Assembly: GCA_021108335.1 (NCBI GenBank)
Contig: JAIORC010000255.1
Span: forward strand, 1 to 41,894
DNA length: 41,894 nucleotides
From: Phycisphaerae bacterium
GTDB lineage: Bacteria; Planctomycetota; Phycisphaerae; SM23-33
Reading direction: 5' to 3'
Shown here: piece by piece, positions 2,136-40,519 of the stretch
How the letters are laid out: each line of letters begins with the position of its first letter
Position numbering within the stretch: position 1 is the stretch's first letter
The notes under the pieces: generated by a model
Seen by the model: the letters and a program-made list of their open reading frames with translations, nothing else
Told to the model about the DNA's origin: nothing
The model's database searches: none
Program-made: the position numbers and the translations under genes

Positions 2136-3674
2136 ATGTTGCGATTCGAAGCTTTTGTCGAAGGAAAACAAGCCGAAGATATCGACCTGGCTGGCGCGTA
2201 CGTCTTCGCCCAGGACGAGATTCCAATCCGGGCAGACCTGGTCGCCTCCGGGAACGAGATTTCCTGCATGAAGCAGTCTCCCGGCGCGTGCGGCCTGATG
2301 CTGCTCTGGCCCAGCGGGCCGGCCGGCAAATACCTGATGGGAACCACCCGCCTGCCAAAACGCTCCAAGCCATATAACCTGAACCTGGAACTGGCGCGGG
2401 CGCAAATCATGCGGCTATATCGCAAGCGGGAAGATTGGGCATTGTTCGACTATGCCGACACCGGCGATCTTAACCAGGAATTTGACCAGATACGCAGACA
2501 ATTCGTCGAAGCCATGTGCACCGACGTTTCCGACCCTGCGGCAGCGGCGATAATAGCGGACAAGGTTCTGAACCAGGCGCTGCTGCTTGGCGAAAAGATG
2601 GCCTTGTTCCATGCCGACCTGCTATACCAGAAACGCACACGCCGGGCAAAAACAGACATGAAATTCGGCACGGCGGTCAATCTCTATACCGACCAGCCGG
2701 CCTACCGCGATCTGCTGGCCAAGGAGTTTGACTTCGTCCACATTCCCACCCACTGGTGCCACACCGAAGCCCAGGAACGGGTTCACGAGTACTCCCATAT
2801 CGACGAATGGATAAACTGGGCCACCCGAGAAAACAAGGCTATCCACGCCGGGCCGCTGCTGTGCTTTGAGCCGAACGTTCTGCCGGAATGGCTGACTGTG
2901 TGGAAAAACGACTTCGACGCGCTTCGGAAGCTCGTTTATGCCCATATCCAGCGGCTCGTGGAACGATACGCCAGCCGGGTAAAGGTCTGGAACGTCACCA
3001 GCGGGCTGGCTGCGGTAAATACCTTTAATCTCAGTTTCGACCAGATTTCCGAGCTGACCCGCACCAGTTGCCAACTCGTCAAGAAAATGGCCCCCGACAG
3101 CCAGGTCATGATCGACATCACCATGCCCTGGGGCGAATATTACGCCCGCAATCAGCGAACCATTCCGCCGCTGCTGTATGCGGATATGGCTTATCAGGCG
3201 GACATGAAATTCGACGCGTTCGGCTTGTCGCTGCAAATGGGAATTCCCACCGACGGGCATTTCGTGCGAGACCTCATGCAAATCAGCGGGATGCTGGACA
3301 TGTTCATACCCCACGGCAAGGCGGTGCATATTACCGCCTGCTCCGTACCGTCCAGCCCACAGTCCGACCCCGCCGACTTCTGGGGCGGACGAATGCCGGT
3401 TGCAAAAGCCGGCGCGTGGCATGCCCCGTGGTCGGAACGCCTCCAGGCGGAATGGATGCAGGCTGTCGTCAGGCTCGCGAGGTCCAAGCCATACGTCGAA
3501 AGCATCTGCTGGGGCGACCTTGCCGATATCCCGCGACACCGCATACCGAACGGCGGACTGTGTAAGGCGAACCTACACCCAAAAACTGCATACAAGGAAT
3601 TCCTGAGCCTGCGGCATTCCATGGTCGAGGACGAACATCATAATCATCACCATCACAGACATAGACACCATTAA
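2136..3674 (+). CDS. Glycoside hydrolase family 10-fold protein, apparently catalytically degenerate, His-rich tail
   Basis: A 512-residue protein. Residues about 170-490 resemble the TIM barrel of GH10 endo-xylanases: MKFGTAVN opening strand, HIPTHWCHTE, RVKVWNVTSGL, VMIDITMPWG, FDAFGLSLQMG and the late ICWGDLAD strand. GH10 enzymes need an acid/base Glu in a WDVxNE motif and a nucleophile Glu in a TELD-like motif. Here these places read WNVTSGL and HITACSV, so neither Glu is present. About 165 N-terminal residues form an extra domain I do not recognise. The last 17 residues are a His-rich tail (EDEHHNHHHHRHRHH), which may bind metal. There is no obvious signal peptide. ComEA-like and CPBP genes follow within 10 bp each. 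Call: GH10 homologue, probably non-hydrolytic; a binding or structural role is an inference. Confidence 0.75.
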   Translation: MLRFEAFVEGKQAEDIDLAGAYVFAQDEIPIRADLVASGNEISCMKQSPGACGLMLLWPSGPAGKYLMGTTRLPKRSKPYNLNLELARAQIMRLYRKREDWALFDYADTGDLNQEFDQIRRQFVEAMCTDVSDPAAAAIIADKVLNQALLLGEKMALFHADLLYQKRTRRAKTDMKFGTAVNLYTDQPAYRDLLAKEFDFVHIPTHWCHTEAQERVHEYSHIDEWINWATRENKAIHAGPLLCFEPNVLPEWLTVWKNDFDALRKLVYAHIQRLVERYASRVKVWNVTSGLAAVNTFNLSFDQISELTRTSCQLVKKMAPDSQVMIDITMPWGEYYARNQRTIPPLLYADMAYQADMKFDAFGLSLQMGIPTDGHFVRDLMQISGMLDMFIPHGKAVHITACSVPSSPQSDPADFWGGRMPVAKAGAWHAPWSERLQAEWMQAVVRLARSKPYVESICWGDLADIPRHRIPNGGLCKANLHPKTAYKEFLSLRHSMVEDEHHNHHHHRHRHH

Positions 3675-3683
3675 CTTACCTTC

Positions 3684-4070
3684 ATGAATCACAAACCCGC
3701 CATGAAGTTCGATTTCCGGCTTACCCACCCGAACCGGATAGCCTTGTTAATCCTGGCTGCCGGGGCGATAGCGTTTCTCGCCGGCGGCAACCGTGGGCAA
3801 TTGCGGTTCACCGTCGCTACGCCGGTGGATACGGTAAAAATCACCGCCGCTTCGGAGCGGCTGGACCCAAATATCGCTACTATCGCTTCGCTGCGCCGGC
3901 TACCCGGCATAGGAGTTACCCGGGCCAGGCGAATCGTGCATTATCGCCAGAACCACGGGCCAAGCGCCTTTGCCGTCGTCGCCGATTTGCGGAAAGTTCC
4001 CGGCATCGGCCCGGGAATTGCCCGAACCGTCGCACCGTACCTGACCCTGCCGAATAGTCTGCCGAAATAG
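3684..4070 (+). CDS. ComEA-like helix-hairpin-helix protein
   Basis: A 128-residue protein with one N-terminal membrane helix (about residues 17-37, IALLILAAGAIAFLAGG) followed by a short periplasmic stretch and two helix-hairpin-helix motifs, RRLPGIGVTRARRIV and RKVPGIGPGIARTV. This is the ComEA arrangement: a membrane-anchored DNA-binding protein that takes part in DNA uptake. Other HhH proteins, including type II secretion GspK-like ones, share the motif, so uptake is only suggested. It starts 9 bp after the GH10-like stop and ends 6 bp before the CPBP gene, so the three probably form one transcript. No other competence genes are present in the window. Confidence 0.82.
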   Translation: MNHKPAMKFDFRLTHPNRIALLILAAGAIAFLAGGNRGQLRFTVATPVDTVKITAASERLDPNIATIASLRRLPGIGVTRARRIVHYRQNHGPSAFAVVADLRKVPGIGPGIARTVAPYLTLPNSLPK

Positions 4071-16008: not shown

Positions 16009-16057
16009 TACGGCGGGCGGCATTCGATAGTACCGCATACGGAAAGGAAATTTGAAA

Positions 16058-17839
16058 ATGCGTAGTTTTCTGCGGAAACCTGTGTGTCGCTTGGTGTGGG
16101 GGCTTGGTTTGATGGTCCTTGGCTTAGCCATGTGTTTGAACAGCGGCCGGATAATCGATTTTATCATGGGGCCTAGTACGCTCAAGATACCCCCGGATTC
16201 GTATATTCCGATTGAAATTCCCGAGCCGGTGCTGGTAACACCTCCACCGTCCCCACTCCTCACCAACCAGGTGCGCTACTTTGGGTATGGTCCGGCAGTC
16301 ACGACTGCCGAAGTGCCGCCGGCTAAGCTGAACATCACCATTGCCAGGGAGACGACATACATTTTCAGGCCGGTTAACGAAGACGGCACCGTCAATTACC
16401 TGGCGTATCTCAACAACAAGTACGGTAAGGGAGTTACGAAAGATAATAACGCGTTCGTGCCGCTACTGAAGGCATTCGGGCCGGGCATGATCCACGAAAA
16501 GGTGCGAGACAAACTGTTCAAGAGGCTGGGAATAGAACCGCTTCCTGCCAAGGGCGAGTATTTCGTAAGCCTGCATGATTATAGCTGTATAACCAAACAA
16601 CCACAAAACGTTGATAAAGAGTTTGACACGGCTTTGAATGGGCCGTGGGTCGCGAAGGATTGTCCGATAATCGTCGGCTGGCTCAAGGCGAATGAAAAGT
16701 CGCTGGCCTTGGCGCAAAAGGCTGCGCAACGCCCCAGGTATTTTGCGCCTTTGATGGCAACATCTGATTTTGCTCCTGTGATAGCGGCGTCTGATTTCGC
16801 TCCATTATTTGCAAACAACATAGGTTCTTCTTGTTATGTCCGACTTTTTGCCAAAACGATGACTTGCCGTGCTATGCTTAAATCTGGTTCCGGTGATATC
16901 GAGGGTATGTGGGCAGATTTGTTGTCCGTTCAAAAAATGGGCCGACACATCGGTCAGGGATCTTTGCTCCATGATTATTTAGATGGACTTTGGATAAACC
17001 TGTTCGCCCGTTATCATATGGCGAAAGTAGCTGTCAGCGGCAAATTGACGGCAAAACAAGCAAAGCGGTTTCTCGCGGAATATAACGAGCTGCCGCGGTG
17101 GAATTTTTTCCCCGCGATGCAAAACGAACGACTATTTGCCTTGGAGATGCTTTTATTTATCGCCAAGGGAGGTCAGCCATGCCATCTATTTGGTTTCGAC
17201 AGAGCCCAGAAAATAGAGGCGCTACTAAACATGATCGACTGGAACGAAGTATTACGAACGATAAATAGCCGGTATGACAGGCAAGTGAAAATATTTCGTC
17301 TTCCAAATGCTTCTGAGAGGAAACTGGCTCAAACAAAATTTGACAAGGAAATACAGAAGCTGGTGGCTGATTACAGTAGGATCAAAGGACCTTGGCCCGA
17401 AGGGCCTGGCGTTACCGAACTCAATGCTCTTATTGACAAAGCCAAGAAATCAAAACCGCAGGAACACAAACAAATCACACAAGATATGGCTAACCTCACT
17501 ATTGCGGTGTTGTTTTCTTCTTTTCGCGGGTCAATCATGCTTTTTTCTGTGGGCGGACTGATCGAGCTTCAGGAATCCCAGATTATGCATGACGAGCTTG
17601 TTGGCGTTGCGTTGGCGCTGGCGGCGCACAAAGCCGAGAAGGGTGCGTATCCTCAAAAGCTCGCGGAGTTGTCGCCGGCATATCTGAAGACAATCCCGGC
17701 AGACCGGTTTTCCGGTAAGCCGCTGATTTACAAGACCCAGGACAAAGGATTTTTACTGTACAGTGTCGGGAGAAACCTGAAAGACAACGGCGGGAAAGAC
17801 GAGGCCAGCGATATCGTAATCGAGGCGAAGCGCCAGTAG
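16058..17839 (+). CDS. Planctomycete-type hypothetical protein with membrane anchor
   Basis: A 593-residue protein of unknown function. An N-terminal hydrophobic segment (about residues 10-33, LVWGLGLMVLGLAMCLN) is a membrane anchor or uncleaved signal. A long region without recognised domain follows. The C-terminus (about 515-590, HKAEKGAYPQKLAELSPAYL and LLYSVGRNLKDNGG) has the YP..L..L...YL...P.D.F.G.PL.Y...G..LYS.G.N..D.GG pattern. That pattern ends many planctomycete proteins and is reminiscent of the GspG pseudopilin C-terminus. Residues about 229-253 contain a 9-residue repeat (FAPLMATSD / FAPVIAASD / FAPLFANN). ATG 16058 has GGAAAGGAA upstream; a TTG two codons earlier is less likely. 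Confidence 0.7.
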   Translation: MRSFLRKPVCRLVWGLGLMVLGLAMCLNSGRIIDFIMGPSTLKIPPDSYIPIEIPEPVLVTPPPSPLLTNQVRYFGYGPAVTTAEVPPAKLNITIARETTYIFRPVNEDGTVNYLAYLNNKYGKGVTKDNNAFVPLLKAFGPGMIHEKVRDKLFKRLGIEPLPAKGEYFVSLHDYSCITKQPQNVDKEFDTALNGPWVAKDCPIIVGWLKANEKSLALAQKAAQRPRYFAPLMATSDFAPVIAASDFAPLFANNIGSSCYVRLFAKTMTCRAMLKSGSGDIEGMWADLLSVQKMGRHIGQGSLLHDYLDGLWINLFARYHMAKVAVSGKLTAKQAKRFLAEYNELPRWNFFPAMQNERLFALEMLLFIAKGGQPCHLFGFDRAQKIEALLNMIDWNEVLRTINSRYDRQVKIFRLPNASERKLAQTKFDKEIQKLVADYSRIKGPWPEGPGVTELNALIDKAKKSKPQEHKQITQDMANLTIAVLFSSFRGSIMLFSVGGLIELQESQIMHDELVGVALALAAHKAEKGAYPQKLAELSPAYLKTIPADRFSGKPLIYKTQDKGFLLYSVGRNLKDNGGKDEASDIVIEAKRQ

Positions 17840-18129: not shown

Positions 18130-18268
18130 CGGTCGGTCGTGATGGGTATGGGTTTCGGCAAGGGACGCTCGGCAGTGCGCTACGGATAGCAATTCGGCTT
18201 TGTATTTACCATCAGTTTTACTAATCGCGGGTTGTCGCGCGCCGCTCGCTATTTTGAAGGGTAGCTTA

Positions 18269-19603
18269 ATGGTTTCGACAGATCGCTCACTGTGGCAGAA
18301 AATTATTCAGGAAGTCGTCGCAAACGGAGGAAACATCATCCGCCCGTGGTTCACCCAGCTCCAGCCGATTTCACTCGAGCACGGCCTGCTGGAAATCGAA
18401 GCGCCAGGCCCGAAGGAGCAGGACTACTGCCGCAAGCACGCAGCCCGATTGTTCACCGACGCCGCACAACACGCCACCGGCCGACTTGTGGGCGTCTGCT
18501 TCCTTACAAAATCGCAACGCGCTGCCGAAGATGCAGAACTTAACCAAGCCGTCGCCCAAACATTTATGTCCACCGAAGACGCCGATAACTTCAACAGCGA
18601 TTACACCTTCAAAAGTTTTGTTACCGGGCCTTGCAATCGGTTGGCCCACGCGGCATGTTCCGCTATAAGTGACAGCCCCGGCAAGACTTACAATCCGCTG
18701 TTTCTTCACGGCTCCAGCGGTTTGGGCAAGACCCACCTGCTCCAGGCAGCCTGCCACCAGATATTGCAGACTTTCCCGGAAACGAAAATCAAATTCCTCA
18801 GTTGCGAGGCGTTTGTGAACGATTTCATCGAAGCCGTCAGCAAAGGCGACCTGCACGAGTTCCGATATCGCTACCGCCACGTGGACATGCTGGCGATCGA
18901 CGACATCCAGTTCCTCGCCGACCACGAACAAAGCCAGGAAGAATTCTTCCATACATTCAACACGCTATACCAATCGCAAAAACAGATTATCCTGACCTCC
19001 GACCGCAGCCCGCACGATACGTCGCTGGAAGACCGGTTGATCAGCCGCTTCAACTGGGGCCTGGTTACACGGATAAGTCGCCCCTGCTACGAAACCCGCG
19101 TCGCCATCCTCCGCAAGAAGGCCCTGCAGCGAAATATCGACCTGCCGGAAGATGTTACCTGTTTCATCGCCGGCACGATAGATTCCAACACCCGCGAATT
19201 GGAAGGCGCCGTCGCCAAGGTCGCCATGTTGGCACAAGTTGCGGATCGGCCTATCGACCTGTCCCTGGCGGAAGAAGCCCTCGGCGGCGATTCCACACCC
19301 ACGCGACGGGAAATCACCATCGACGATATTCTCAATGTTGTAACCACCCGCTTCAACATTCGGCTGATCGACCTGCAATCCAAAAAACGTACACGGTCAA
19401 TCGCCTGGCCGCGCCAGATATGCATGTACCTCGCCAGGAATCTTACGCGACATAGCCTGGAGGAAATCGGCGGGTATTTTGGCGGCCGAGACCATACCAC
19501 TGTTATGCATGCAAACAAAACTGTCGAAACTACCCGCGCAAAAGACCCTCAATTTCAGGCAACTCTGGACAAACTGACAGAAGATATCCAAGTAGGACTT
19601 TAA
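18269..19603 (+). CDS. dnaA: Chromosomal replication initiator protein DnaA
   Basis: A 444-residue DnaA with normal domain order. Domain I covers about residues 1-85 (SLWQKIIQEVV..WFTQLQPIS), with a short linker. The AAA+ domain III has Walker A HGSSGLGKTHLLQAA (about 145-160), Walker B LAIDDIQFLA (about 208-217), and sensor regions ILTSDRSPHD and DRLISRFNWGL. Domain IV carries the DNA-binding signature ending EEIGGYFGGRDHTTVMHA (about 396-413). It binds ATP and the 9-bp DnaA boxes and opens oriC. ATG 18269 has GAAGGG eight bases upstream; an in-frame start at 18200 would add an unrelated leader. The usual dnaN-recF-gyrB neighbours are absent; instead a gmhA-like gene converges from the right. 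Confidence 0.97.
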   Translation: MVSTDRSLWQKIIQEVVANGGNIIRPWFTQLQPISLEHGLLEIEAPGPKEQDYCRKHAARLFTDAAQHATGRLVGVCFLTKSQRAAEDAELNQAVAQTFMSTEDADNFNSDYTFKSFVTGPCNRLAHAACSAISDSPGKTYNPLFLHGSSGLGKTHLLQAACHQILQTFPETKIKFLSCEAFVNDFIEAVSKGDLHEFRYRYRHVDMLAIDDIQFLADHEQSQEEFFHTFNTLYQSQKQIILTSDRSPHDTSLEDRLISRFNWGLVTRISRPCYETRVAILRKKALQRNIDLPEDVTCFIAGTIDSNTRELEGAVAKVAMLAQVADRPIDLSLAEEALGGDSTPTRREITIDDILNVVTTRFNIRLIDLQSKKRTRSIAWPRQICMYLARNLTRHSLEEIGGYFGGRDHTTVMHANKTVETTRAKDPQFQATLDKLTEDIQVGL

Positions 19604-24327: not shown

Positions 24328-24365
24328 GCGATGATTATATAGATGATCTCGGACTGTCCCTGGAA
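24313..24365 (+). promoter_or_regulatory. Riboswitch expression platform (alternative stem)
   Basis: The 3' end of aptamer 2, TTCCAGGACAG (24313-24323), can pair with CTGTCCCTGGAA (24354-24365) with one bulged C. This would compete with aptamer closure and lies just before the AAAGG ribosome-binding site (24371-24374), so a translational or mixed switch is likely. Inferred from complementarity. Confidence 0.55.
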
Positions 24366-24381
24366 AATGAAAGGTTCCGCC

Positions 24382-27033
24382 ATGGCTGCGACAGAGGATT
24401 CTCTCCTGCGAACCCCATTATACGACCGCCACATCGCGCTCGGCGCGAAGGTTGTCGAGTTCGGCGGCTGGGCTATGCCCGTCCAATATCCAACCGGCAT
24501 CGTGGCTGAGCATCTGGCGACGCGTAAGACAACTGGTTTGTTCGATATCTCACATATGGGACGATTCGCCGTCCGCGGGGCTGGGGCGGTGGAATTCCTC
24601 CAGCACGTGCTGACCAATAACTGCCAGGCCCTCGACGTCGGCCTGGCCCAGTATACGATTATCCCCAACGAAACCGGCGGAGCCATCGACGACGCGTATC
24701 TCTACCGATTCGTAGCCGATGAATTCCTGCTGGTCGTCAATGCCGCCAACCGCCTGAAAGACTGGGCACACCTCCAGGAGCAACTGGCGAAATTCGACGA
24801 CGTGGAAATGACCGACCGCACCAACGAAATCGTGATGCTGTCGCTGCAAGGCCCGACCAGCCGGGCGATTCTCGAAGAAGTCATCGAGGCTGGGCCAATG
24901 CCAGAACCCGCGCGGAACAGCCTCTGCGAAGTTACCATCAACGCCGCAACCGTCAAGGTCGGGCGAACCGGCTACACCGGCGAGCCGCTGTGCTTCGAGC
25001 TGTTTATCCCCCGCGACGCCGGCGAAGGGCTGTGGGATTTATTGATCGCAAAAGGCGCGACGCCCGTGGGGCTTGGCGGGCGGGACACTTTGCGCCTCGA
25101 AGCCGCCATGCCGCTTTACGGCCACGAGTTCGGCTTGGATGGCGAGGGGAACGAAATCCCAATCTGCGCCGTGCCGCTGGCGAAATTCGCCGTGAGCTTC
25201 TCGCCCCTCAAGGGCGACTTCATCGGCAAAGCCGCCCTCGGATGGCAATACGAAGCACTCAAAAAAATCATGCGCCGCGATACGTCGCTCATCGCCGACC
25301 TGCCCCGCAAAATCGCGCCTGTCGCGCTGGCTGGGCGCGGCGTAGCCCGGGCCGGGGCGAAAGTTACACACGACGGCAAGCACGTCGGCTATATCACCAG
25401 TGGCACGATGGTTCCGCTGTGGGGTTCGCAGGGTGTGGGCCTGTCAAGCCGGCAGACTGATGAGCACCAACTCCGGTCGATTTGCCTGGCTTACATCGAC
25501 AGCGACATTTACGAGAATCAGCCGCTCACCGTGGACATCCGCGACAAAACTGTCCCAGCCGTTACCGTTAAGTATCACATGCGTTCCGAAGCGCCGCCTT
25601 TCGCCAGGCCGATTATCCACGACTTCCAACTACCGGCTGCCCCCCTGCCGACCGGGCCAGCCAAGGTCAAACACCTGCTGGACAAAGCCCTGGCCAATAC
25701 CGTCTGGCGGCAGCGCGAATGCATCAATCTTATACCCTCGGAAATGACGATCTCGCCGATGGCCCGGCTGCTTAGCGTCATGGACCCAGCCGGCCGATAC
25801 GCCGAACACAAAAAGTCCAAAGCCTTCTACGACGCGGACATTTTCTACTACCAGGGCACGGGATTCATCGACGAGGTCGAGCGGACACTGGAAGCCGAGA
25901 TGCTGGATTACCTCGGCTGTGCGGAGGCCGAAACCCGCCTCATCAGCGGGCAGATGGCCAACGCCACCGTCTTCAGCGCCATGGTGGACTACATCAATCG
26001 CACCGACCGCAAAATCGAGCAGCGGCGGATGCGGCAGGTGATGAACAATCACATCGGCAAGGGCGGACACCTCTCCAGCCAGCCGATGGGCGCACTGCGG
26101 GACTTCGTCAGCCGAGACCCACGAACCGAGCGGCCTGCCGTGGTGAATTTCCCCGTGCTGCCGGAAAACCAATACAAAATCGACGTCCCGGCTGCGTTGA
26201 AGCTTATCGACGAGTACCGCCCGGAGCTTATCATCCTCGGCAAGAGCATGGTGCTGCACACCGAACCCGTCGCGGAAATCCGCCAATTCCTGACGGCTGC
26301 CAATATCGACTCGGTGGTGATGTACGACATGGCCCACGTGCTGGGGCTGATCGGCCCGCACTTCCAGATGCCATTCGAAGAAGGAGCCGACCTCGTTACC
26401 GGCTCGACGCACAAGACGTTCTTCGGAACGCAGCGCGGGGTCATCGGCGGGCGATTTACCGAGGATCAGGAGCGTTACGAGCTTTGGGAGGCTGTCCGCC
26501 GCAGGACGTTCCCCGGCGCGGTGAGCAATCATCATCTCGGCACGATGGTCGGGCTATTGATGAGCGTCTACGAGATGAACCACTTCAAGGAAGAATATCA
26601 GCCGAAGGTCATCGCCAACGCCAAGGCCTTCGCCAAAGCGCTGGCGGATACCGGGCTGAACGTCGCCGGCGACTCGGAAATTTCGTATACCCAGACGCAC
26701 CAGGTGATTATCCACGTCGGCTACGCCCACGGGCCGGAAATCGCCGAGCGGCTCGAAGCTAACAACATCATCTGCAATTACCAGGCTTGCCCGGACGAGG
26801 AAAGTTTCACTGCCTCGGGCGCGCTGCGGATGGGCGTTTCGGAAATGACCCGCTTCGGCATGGGCCAGGACGATTTCAAAACGCTGGCTGGGCTGATCCA
26901 CGACGTGATAGCCGATAACGCCGACGTTACCGATAAAGTCAAATCGCTGCGGTCGAACTTCACGGAATTGCAGTTCTGCTTCAGCGAAAATGAATATGAA
27001 GGTGTCTTGCAAAAGCTGCACAAATTATTGTAG
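24382..27033 (+). CDS. Fusion of aminomethyltransferase (GcvT) and serine hydroxymethyltransferase (GlyA)
   Basis: An 883-residue two-enzyme protein. Residues 1-400 are GcvT (T-protein): RTPLYDRHIALGAKVVEFGGW, the folate-binding GGAIDDAYLYRF, VVNAANRLKDW and the C-terminal barrel. GcvT releases ammonia and 5,10-methylene-THF from the aminomethyl H-protein. After a Pro-rich linker (about 405-425), residues 426-883 are a divergent SHMT. They show INLIPSEMTISP, GRYAEH, FIDEVERTLEAEML, the PLP-binding Asp/His in YDMAHVLGLIG, the Schiff-base Lys in TGSTHKTFFGTQRG (about 678) and the carboxylate Arg in ALRMGVSEMTRFG. All key residues are present. SHMT uses methylene-THF and glycine to make serine. 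The start is ATG 24382 (AAAGG seven bases upstream); two in-frame ATGs at 24343 and 24367 fall in the riboswitch platform. Confidence 0.93.
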   Translation: MAATEDSLLRTPLYDRHIALGAKVVEFGGWAMPVQYPTGIVAEHLATRKTTGLFDISHMGRFAVRGAGAVEFLQHVLTNNCQALDVGLAQYTIIPNETGGAIDDAYLYRFVADEFLLVVNAANRLKDWAHLQEQLAKFDDVEMTDRTNEIVMLSLQGPTSRAILEEVIEAGPMPEPARNSLCEVTINAATVKVGRTGYTGEPLCFELFIPRDAGEGLWDLLIAKGATPVGLGGRDTLRLEAAMPLYGHEFGLDGEGNEIPICAVPLAKFAVSFSPLKGDFIGKAALGWQYEALKKIMRRDTSLIADLPRKIAPVALAGRGVARAGAKVTHDGKHVGYITSGTMVPLWGSQGVGLSSRQTDEHQLRSICLAYIDSDIYENQPLTVDIRDKTVPAVTVKYHMRSEAPPFARPIIHDFQLPAAPLPTGPAKVKHLLDKALANTVWRQRECINLIPSEMTISPMARLLSVMDPAGRYAEHKKSKAFYDADIFYYQGTGFIDEVERTLEAEMLDYLGCAEAETRLISGQMANATVFSAMVDYINRTDRKIEQRRMRQVMNNHIGKGGHLSSQPMGALRDFVSRDPRTERPAVVNFPVLPENQYKIDVPAALKLIDEYRPELIILGKSMVLHTEPVAEIRQFLTAANIDSVVMYDMAHVLGLIGPHFQMPFEEGADLVTGSTHKTFFGTQRGVIGGRFTEDQERYELWEAVRRRTFPGAVSNHHLGTMVGLLMSVYEMNHFKEEYQPKVIANAKAFAKALADTGLNVAGDSEISYTQTHQVIIHVGYAHGPEIAERLEANNIICNYQACPDEESFTASGALRMGVSEMTRFGMGQDDFKTLAGLIHDVIADNADVTDKVKSLRSNFTELQFCFSENEYEGVLQKLHKLL

Positions 27034-39424: not shown

Positions 39425-40519
39425 TTACCAGTCTTTGTCTACGGGCGCTGCCGTTCTTTGTTGTGCGTGGTATTTTTCAATACGCCGCCGGAGGTTCCTG
39501 TCCCGGACGGCCTGCAGCAGCTTGGCTGCCTCTTCGGGGCTCATCTTGTCCATCTTGACGGGCTTGGCCTTGGCTGCCGAGCCGCCGGGCTTTGCTTTGC
39601 TGTCGCCAGGCTTCCCGCTGGCGGGTTGATTCTGCTTTTTCTGCTGCAGCTGGCCCTGCTGCTTTTGCTGCTTGTCCTGTTGCTGCTTATCTTGTTGCTT
39701 CTGTTTCTCCTGCTGTTGCTGCTTGTCTTGCTGATTCTGTTTATCTTGCCGATCCTGCTTTTTCTGCTGTGCTTTTTGTTGTTGCTTCTGTTTCTGTTGT
39801 TTGTTTTTCTCGTTCTTCTTCTGGTTTTTCTGTTGTTGCTGGTCTTGTTTCTTTTGTTGTTTGTTTTCCTGGTTTTGTTTTTGTTTATCCTGTTTTTTCT
39901 GGTCCTGCTTGTTTTGCTTTTTTTGATCTTGTTTCTGTTTTTGTTTGTCCTGCTGTTTTTTGTTCTGTTGTTTCTTGTTTTGCTGTTTGTTTTTCTGCTG
40001 CTGTTTTTTATTTTGTTTCGGTTTCTGTTGCAGTTGTTTGATGAGCATCTGGGCCAGTTCGATATTTGCCCGGGCGTCGGCATCGTTTGGGTTTGCCTGT
40101 AGCGATTCTCGGTAGTGGGAGATAGCGGTTTGCAATTGTTTGACAGCCGCCTTTTTATCCTTCTTTTTCAGCAGTTGCAACCCCTCGGCGTAGGCGCAGT
40201 TGCCCAGGTTGAAGCGGGCCTTTGCTTCGAGTGTTTTGTCGTGGGTTTTCAGCGATTGCCCCAGCAGCTCAGCCGCCTGGTCGTAATTGCCTTTTCGGTA
40301 CAGCGCGACGGCCTGGTTGTAAACCAGTTCCGCCCGGCCGGGCTGTTGCTCAGCAAGTTGCTTGTAGACGGCCAGGGCGTTGTCCACTTTGCCGGCAGTC
40401 AAAGCCTCGTTGGCTTGCCGCACGAGCTTGTCCGGCGCGGGCGTATCTGCCTGCCCAAGTGTCGGCAGCAGCAGAATCGCGATGGCAATAAAGACGAATT
40501 GTGCCCAGCGGTTACTCAT
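39425..40519 (-). CDS. BatC-like secreted TPR protein with long Lys/Gln tract
   Basis: A 364-residue protein. A signal peptide (about 1-24, ending TLGQA) is followed by TPR units at about 30-150 (LVRQANEALTAGKVDNALAVY, LVYNQAVALYRKGNYDQAAEL, ARFNLGNCAYAEGLQLLKKK). Residues about 160-300 are almost only Lys, Gln, Asn and Asp (KQNKKQQQKNKQQ type), a probable disordered or coiled segment. A short conserved end (MSPEEAAKLLQAVRDRNLRR) follows. This is the BatC position and architecture. ATG 40519 overlaps the BatB stop by 4 bp (ATGA). The longer in-frame extension is antisense-free shadow of batB and is not used. Confidence 0.87.
   Translation of the reverse strand: MSNRWAQFVFIAIAILLLPTLGQADTPAPDKLVRQANEALTAGKVDNALAVYKQLAEQQPGRAELVYNQAVALYRKGNYDQAAELLGQSLKTHDKTLEAKARFNLGNCAYAEGLQLLKKKDKKAAVKQLQTAISHYRESLQANPNDADARANIELAQMLIKQLQQKPKQNKKQQQKNKQQNKKQQNKKQQDKQKQKQDQKKQNKQDQKKQDKQKQNQENKQQKKQDQQQQKNQKKNEKNKQQKQKQQQKAQQKKQDRQDKQNQQDKQQQQEKQKQQDKQQQDKQQKQQGQLQQKKQNQPASGKPGDSKAKPGGSAAKAKPVKMDKMSPEEAAKLLQAVRDRNLRRRIEKYHAQQRTAAPVDKDW

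Follow-up and report, generated by a model that had tools for sequence, protein, structure and literature searches.

What does a protein with the fold of a GH10 glycosidase do in the cell when both of its catalytic glutamates are gone? This question is raised by an open reading frame in the window, that is, the whole stretch of 41,894 nucleotides analysed here, which is the entire contig JAIORC010000255.1 of a Phycisphaerae bacterium (assembly GCA_021108335.1; a genome of 3.78 Mb in 409 contigs). The sequence-only reading of this DNA had proposed a GH10-fold protein that lacks the catalytic glutamates, is unlikely to hydrolyse by the usual mechanism and may have a binding function, possibly for a metal or a polysaccharide. 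The frame and its barrel are located as follows:

2136 to 3674, forward strand: GH10-fold protein of 512 amino acids, probably a pseudo-glycosidase (Pfam, AlphaFold, structure searches)
2646 to 3632, forward strand: (beta/alpha)8 barrel of the GH10 type, residues 171-499 (Pfam and structure searches)

Comparison with Pfam placed GH10 at residues 172-487 (9.1e-11; 42 bits at a cut-off of 22.1), and this frame was the sole match when the genome was searched for GH10. The AlphaFold model of the whole protein, built with 73 sequences, reached a pLDDT of 95.0 and a pTM of 0.93. When this model was used for structure searches, GH10 xylanases ranked on top in Foldseek (best E 9.3e-16). In VIA, the top GH10 xylanase was aligned over 311 residues (Z 32.3, rmsd 3.3) and 1nq6 over 279 residues (Z 30.0, rmsd 2.6), and all 50 among the matches listed had a Z of at least 28.4. 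The proposed fold is thus borne out by Pfam and by the GH10 xylanases that lead the structure searches. Like the GH10 xylanases (PF00331; PDB 7d88/7d89, 1nq6, 1od8), the protein scores above the Pfam cut-off and possesses the barrel and the structural Trp, Pro and Gly positions, but it lacks their catalytic Glu pair and most of their sugar contacts, carries an added N-terminal domain and shows 14-19 percent identity among the VIA matches listed. The start of the frame is backed by an MLxF N-terminus common to the relatives. By eye, no signal peptide is present in the 512 residues, and since an N-terminal hydrophobic stretch is absent by eye, the protein is probably cytoplasmic.

The two sites at which a GH10 enzyme would carry its glutamates are degenerate in the alignment:

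2988 to 3008, forward strand: degenerate acid/base site WNVTSGL, residues 285-291 (WDVVNE in GH10)
3327 to 3347, forward strand: degenerate nucleophile site HITACSV, residues 398-404 (HFTELTI in the ordinary GH10s used here)

In GH10, the acid/base Glu stands at the end of barrel strand 4, the nucleophile Glu in strand 7. These strands comprise residues 284-289 and 396-403 of the AlphaFold model and coincide with both motif sites in a confidently predicted barrel. When the protein was aligned with four ordinary GH10s from its own phylum, the acid/base column fell on G290 and the nucleophile column on A401, in agreement with where strands 4 and 7 end in the model. Other Glu residues at the catalytic positions would have overturned the claim of a lost active site, but in the sequence alignment the window protein has no Glu within two columns of either site. 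Both glutamates are gone, and the motifs sit where they had been placed.

The loss is also conserved. Among 138 distinct homologues (120 from the window's class and 18 from outside), the acid/base Glu was found in none and the nucleophile Glu in two, so that 136 of the 138 possess neither. L186 (G430), a degenerate class member in which parts of the barrel are missing, was excluded from these counts. A Glu two columns off occurred in three sequences at the first site and in nine at the second, in an inconsistent pattern across the 138. The sole holders of the nucleophile Glu, L057 (G054) and L172 (G418), both lack the acid/base Glu.

Besides the glutamates, most of the substrate contacts have disappeared. 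In GH10 structures, sugar is contacted by the His and Trp of strand 3, the Asn of strand 4 and the His of strand 6; the window protein has G239, C243, S289 and Q367 at those columns. Within the 138 homologues, His never occurs at the strand-3 His column (Gly in 110), the strand-3 Trp is substituted in nearly all, the strand-4 Asn is kept in two, and the strand-6 His is kept by six class members. It could be argued that the protein is lectin-like and still uses the GH10 cleft to hold carbohydrates without cutting them, which would fit the GH10 fold and the retained W207, W252, W285 and W459. However, the contacts listed above are mostly gone, no carbohydrate-degradation genes were seen beside the gene, and a signal peptide is absent by eye. 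We consider this use of the cleft improbable, and the earlier suggestion of polysaccharide binding finds no support in it.

If hydrolysis is lost, the question remains why the gene is kept. A single-protein scan of genome contigs found nothing, and an alignment-based scan yielded 265 relatives, of which the best 80 were retained; among these 80, named relatives were mostly Phycisphaerae or Planctomycetota metagenome bins. In the protein search 57 of 60 relatives were matched; further hits in those genomes were either weak GH10 paralogues or fragments of this one gene, and the gene is probably single-copy. When genomes of the window's class at least 90 percent complete were sampled, the profile matched 293 of 296 genomes and all 211 genera. 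It also matched 117 of 119 genomes of a second planctomycete class centred on G337, which we would guess to be the Planctomycetia. Of 392 genomes sampled across the phylum, 102 matched, part of them through ordinary GH10. The gene is therefore near-universal in two classes and absent from much of the remaining phylum, and its conservation across both classes shows that the observation is more than chance. Retention in 410 of the 415 genomes sampled from the two classes argues for selection on something besides hydrolysis.

The history of the loss was followed in a FastTree phylogeny of 71 barrel sequences, rooted on the four ordinary GH10s. The 64 glutamate-poor members (46 from the class and 18 from outside, L057 and L172 included) formed one clade with a support of 0.992, and L168/L169 and L166 branched just outside of it. 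These three sister forms share the two-domain layout of the window protein, N-terminal domain included, and show no obvious signal peptide by eye. They differ from it in that motifs of the WDIINE/ITEL type are kept and the T-Y-R motif of the N-terminal domain is absent. The strand-4 Asn-Glu is present in all three and the nucleophile Glu in two; L168 has Lys instead. The simplest reading of this tree is that catalysis was lost once, before the two classes parted, as judged from three sisters and with an uncertain deep rooting. A lineage with catalytic motifs, the loss of these motifs and the retention of the gene, as seen in the tree and the genome counts, characterize the protein as a GH10-derived pseudoenzyme, which is probably inactive. 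The sister L168 (G184) deserves mention in its own right, as its acid/base motif reads WEIANE and Lys occupies column 401; it may be an intermediate or use a different chemistry.

The sisters also bear on the possibility that the enzyme was repurposed and acquired a new active site in the same barrel, made up for example of E334, R378, D379, Q437 and D464. Acidic residues indeed stay conserved on the old catalytic face (E334, and D464 nearly so): Glu is found at position 334 in 123 of the 138 homologues and Gln at position 437 in 136, and R378 and D379 hardly vary within the window's class. However, the five residues are mostly present already in the sisters with GH10 catalytic motifs and therefore did not arise as replacements, D379 occurs in 12 of the 18 sequences of the outside group, and conservation is not focused on the catalytic face. 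A repurposed enzyme is in our opinion unlikely. A new active site was expected to show as a clustering of conserved positions on the old catalytic face, and no such clustering was found (mean 0.415 versus 0.415 on the opposite face, p 0.81).

The part of the protein that distinguishes the clade lies in front of the barrel:

2136 to 2630, forward strand: N-terminal domain, residues 1-165, six short strands followed by three long helices
2343 to 2399, forward strand: motif of this domain, T70-x2-L73-x5-P79-Y80-x-L82-x2-E85-L86-x-R88 (alignment)

This extra domain, which had already been noticed from the sequence, is predicted with high confidence and reached a pLDDT of 94.9 when modelled alone. 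Foldseek gave no match for it at E ≤ 0.001 (best 0.37), and VIA gave no clear match to a solved structure (top Z 9.6, mostly for the three-helix part, and such helices commonly give matches of this kind); the fold need not be a new one. The profile of the domain matched 80 of the 392 phylum genomes, always at the position of the barrel gene. Positions conserved to at least 90 percent in both groups number 21, eight of them in residues 64-105. The five near-invariant positions that are absent from the sisters (T70, L73, P79, Y80 and R88) all belong to this stretch of the N-terminal domain (enrichment p 3e-6, hypergeometric, for a stretch picked after the list was seen). The combination T70-Y80-E85-R88 is present in 137 of the 138 homologues and in none of the three sister forms, and the domain is conserved. 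Its mean conservation of 0.399 is not above that of the barrel, and the argument for the domain therefore rests on few positions. As a near-invariant motif new to the clade is found here, the N-terminal domain is likely to be the working part and the barrel its scaffold.

At the other end of the protein, the sequence-only reading had drawn attention to a histidine tail:

3636 to 3671, forward strand: His-rich tail HHNHHHHRHRHH, residues 501-512, lineage-specific

The tail exists and is natural, with nine His in the final 16 residues, a number that invites the idea of a metal-binding protein working via this tail. Against this idea, the tail is unique among the 138 homologues, the next richest having two His per eight residues. 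It lies in the hypervariable C-terminal end beyond about residue 496, where the AlphaFold model is of low confidence (59 and 43 in the final two blocks). With the tail restricted to the window's genome, a conserved function cannot reside there, and metal binding via the tail as the function of the protein is scarcely credible. Of the earlier proposal, binding instead of hydrolysis stands as the reading to which the evidence indirectly points; a function in binding metal or polysaccharide is not supported.

A further hint might come from the next gene:

3684 to 4070, forward strand: ComEA-like helix-hairpin-helix protein with HHH_3 and, by eye, a hydrophobic N-terminal stretch

This frame of 128 amino acids starts nine bases past the stop codon of the pseudo-glycosidase gene and contains HHH_3 (Pfam, 8e-14 to 1.2e-13). 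It has this domain and the hydrophobic N-terminal stretch in common with ComEA, but it lies beside a GH10-fold gene, ComEC is found on another contig, and a role in DNA uptake is putative. Matches were accepted between 80 bases ahead of the stop and 700 past it. Among the 113 distinct class loci whose sequence extends at least 700 bases downstream, 96 carried a homologue directly behind the gene on the same strand; each of the remaining same-strand neighbour families reached at most 15 of 125 loci. In the outside group the partner was directly downstream in none of 21 loci, and the near copy L152 also lacks it, so that the pseudo-glycosidase and the partner are not obligately linked. Within the window's class, the frequent gene pair suggests that both are made together, and the proteins may be physically linked.

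This pairing could mean that the protein takes part in the uptake or handling of DNA, acting with its ComEA-like neighbour. The frequent adjacency in the class speaks for this, as does the fact that the window's HHH_3 gene is the sole one over the cut-off in a genome that also contains ComEC. However, the adjacency is missing in the outside group, where the pseudo-glycosidase is equally universal. HHH_3 was detected in 39 of 40 relatives, and several carry extra copies, with additional HHH_3 genes thus present in some genomes of the class; moreover, both proteins would be located on opposite sides of the membrane. We regard a role in DNA uptake as quite improbable.

Apart from the ComEA-like gene, the neighbours are housekeeping genes, each kind at a minority of loci (EndoIII-like HhH-GPD, phosphofructokinase, CPBP protease, sigma-70 and chorismate synthase), and a SAICAR synthetase cluster stands next to 10 of 22 outside-group loci. 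The larger clusters on the opposite strand (up to 119 loci inside the gene and 19 upstream) have the look of shadow frames and were left out of the gene counts. Nine loci with long upstream frames were considered as fusions and rejected, as the protein starts as usual and the upstream part looks like a plain open frame. Elsewhere in the window, positions 1-1316 hold a proline-, lysine- and alanine-rich frame that runs off the contig start and consists of tandem repeats of 45 bases in 9.3 and 11.8 copies. A frame of 595 amino acids without a Pfam match (16052-17839) lies immediately upstream of dnaA (18200-19603). The frame at 24343-27033 (896 amino acids) contains GCV_T (glycine cleavage T-protein, 4.9e-75) followed by SHMT (1.3e-35) and is an apparent fusion of two enzymes of glycine metabolism. 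Dense overlapping short-period repeats rich in CTG/TTG at 39656-40019 are probably low-complexity coding sequence.

Taken at its core, the reading that we prefer is fairly probable: a cytoplasmic pseudo-glycosidase in which the barrel serves as scaffold and the N-terminal domain has a binding role. An ancestor common to two planctomycete classes would have possessed a GH10 enzyme with an additional N-terminal domain. This enzyme would have lost its catalytic glutamates, together with most of its sugar contacts, a single time, and almost all descendants would then have retained the glutamate-less product. The barrel would now be chiefly a folded scaffold, and the N-terminal domain, whose motif T-L-P-Y-L-E-L-R would have arisen alongside the loss, is most likely the conserved working surface, binding a protein or another cell component without hydrolysis. 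In the window's class, the protein is probably made together with the membrane-anchored ComEA-like DNA-binding protein encoded by the next gene. Of this account, sequence and tree establish the loss and how old it is relative to the classes, the conservation, the motif and the gene pair; the inferred parts are the cytoplasmic location, the inactivity, the binding role and a physical link to the ComEA-like protein. The wider claim, in which a GH10 enzyme became, a single time and before the classes split, a core non-catalytic component of a cell process specific to planctomycetes, ancient and nearly indispensable, with a functional N-terminal motif and co-expressed with a helix-hairpin-helix membrane protein in one class, is put forward tentatively and with slightly less than even chances.

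Other pseudo-glycosidases have likewise kept a glycosidase fold and lost catalysis, for example the XIP-type GH18-like inhibitors and the GH1-like domains of Klotho, which belong to GH families other than GH10. Heparanase 2 also retains a glycosidase fold without catalysis, in a different GH family. None of these pseudo-glycosidases is known to us as a core gene shared almost throughout bacterial classes. A search of the open-access literature found no description of the family; Naumoff 2016, reportedly a paper on GH10 evolution, could already mention such sequences. Pseudoenzymes as such are known, and a GH10-derived core member is, as far as checked, new.

For annotation, the finding means that genome surveys may score one xylanase in organisms having none, because the protein exceeds the Pfam GH10 cut-off and the genome contains no other GH10. 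A published table gives exactly one GH10 for each of four Isosphaeraceae, which might be this protein (PMC5352709). The cell biology of planctomycetes is unusual, and a pseudoenzyme with a glycosidase fold in nearly all sampled genomes of two classes points to a core function of these bacteria that has so far not been studied.
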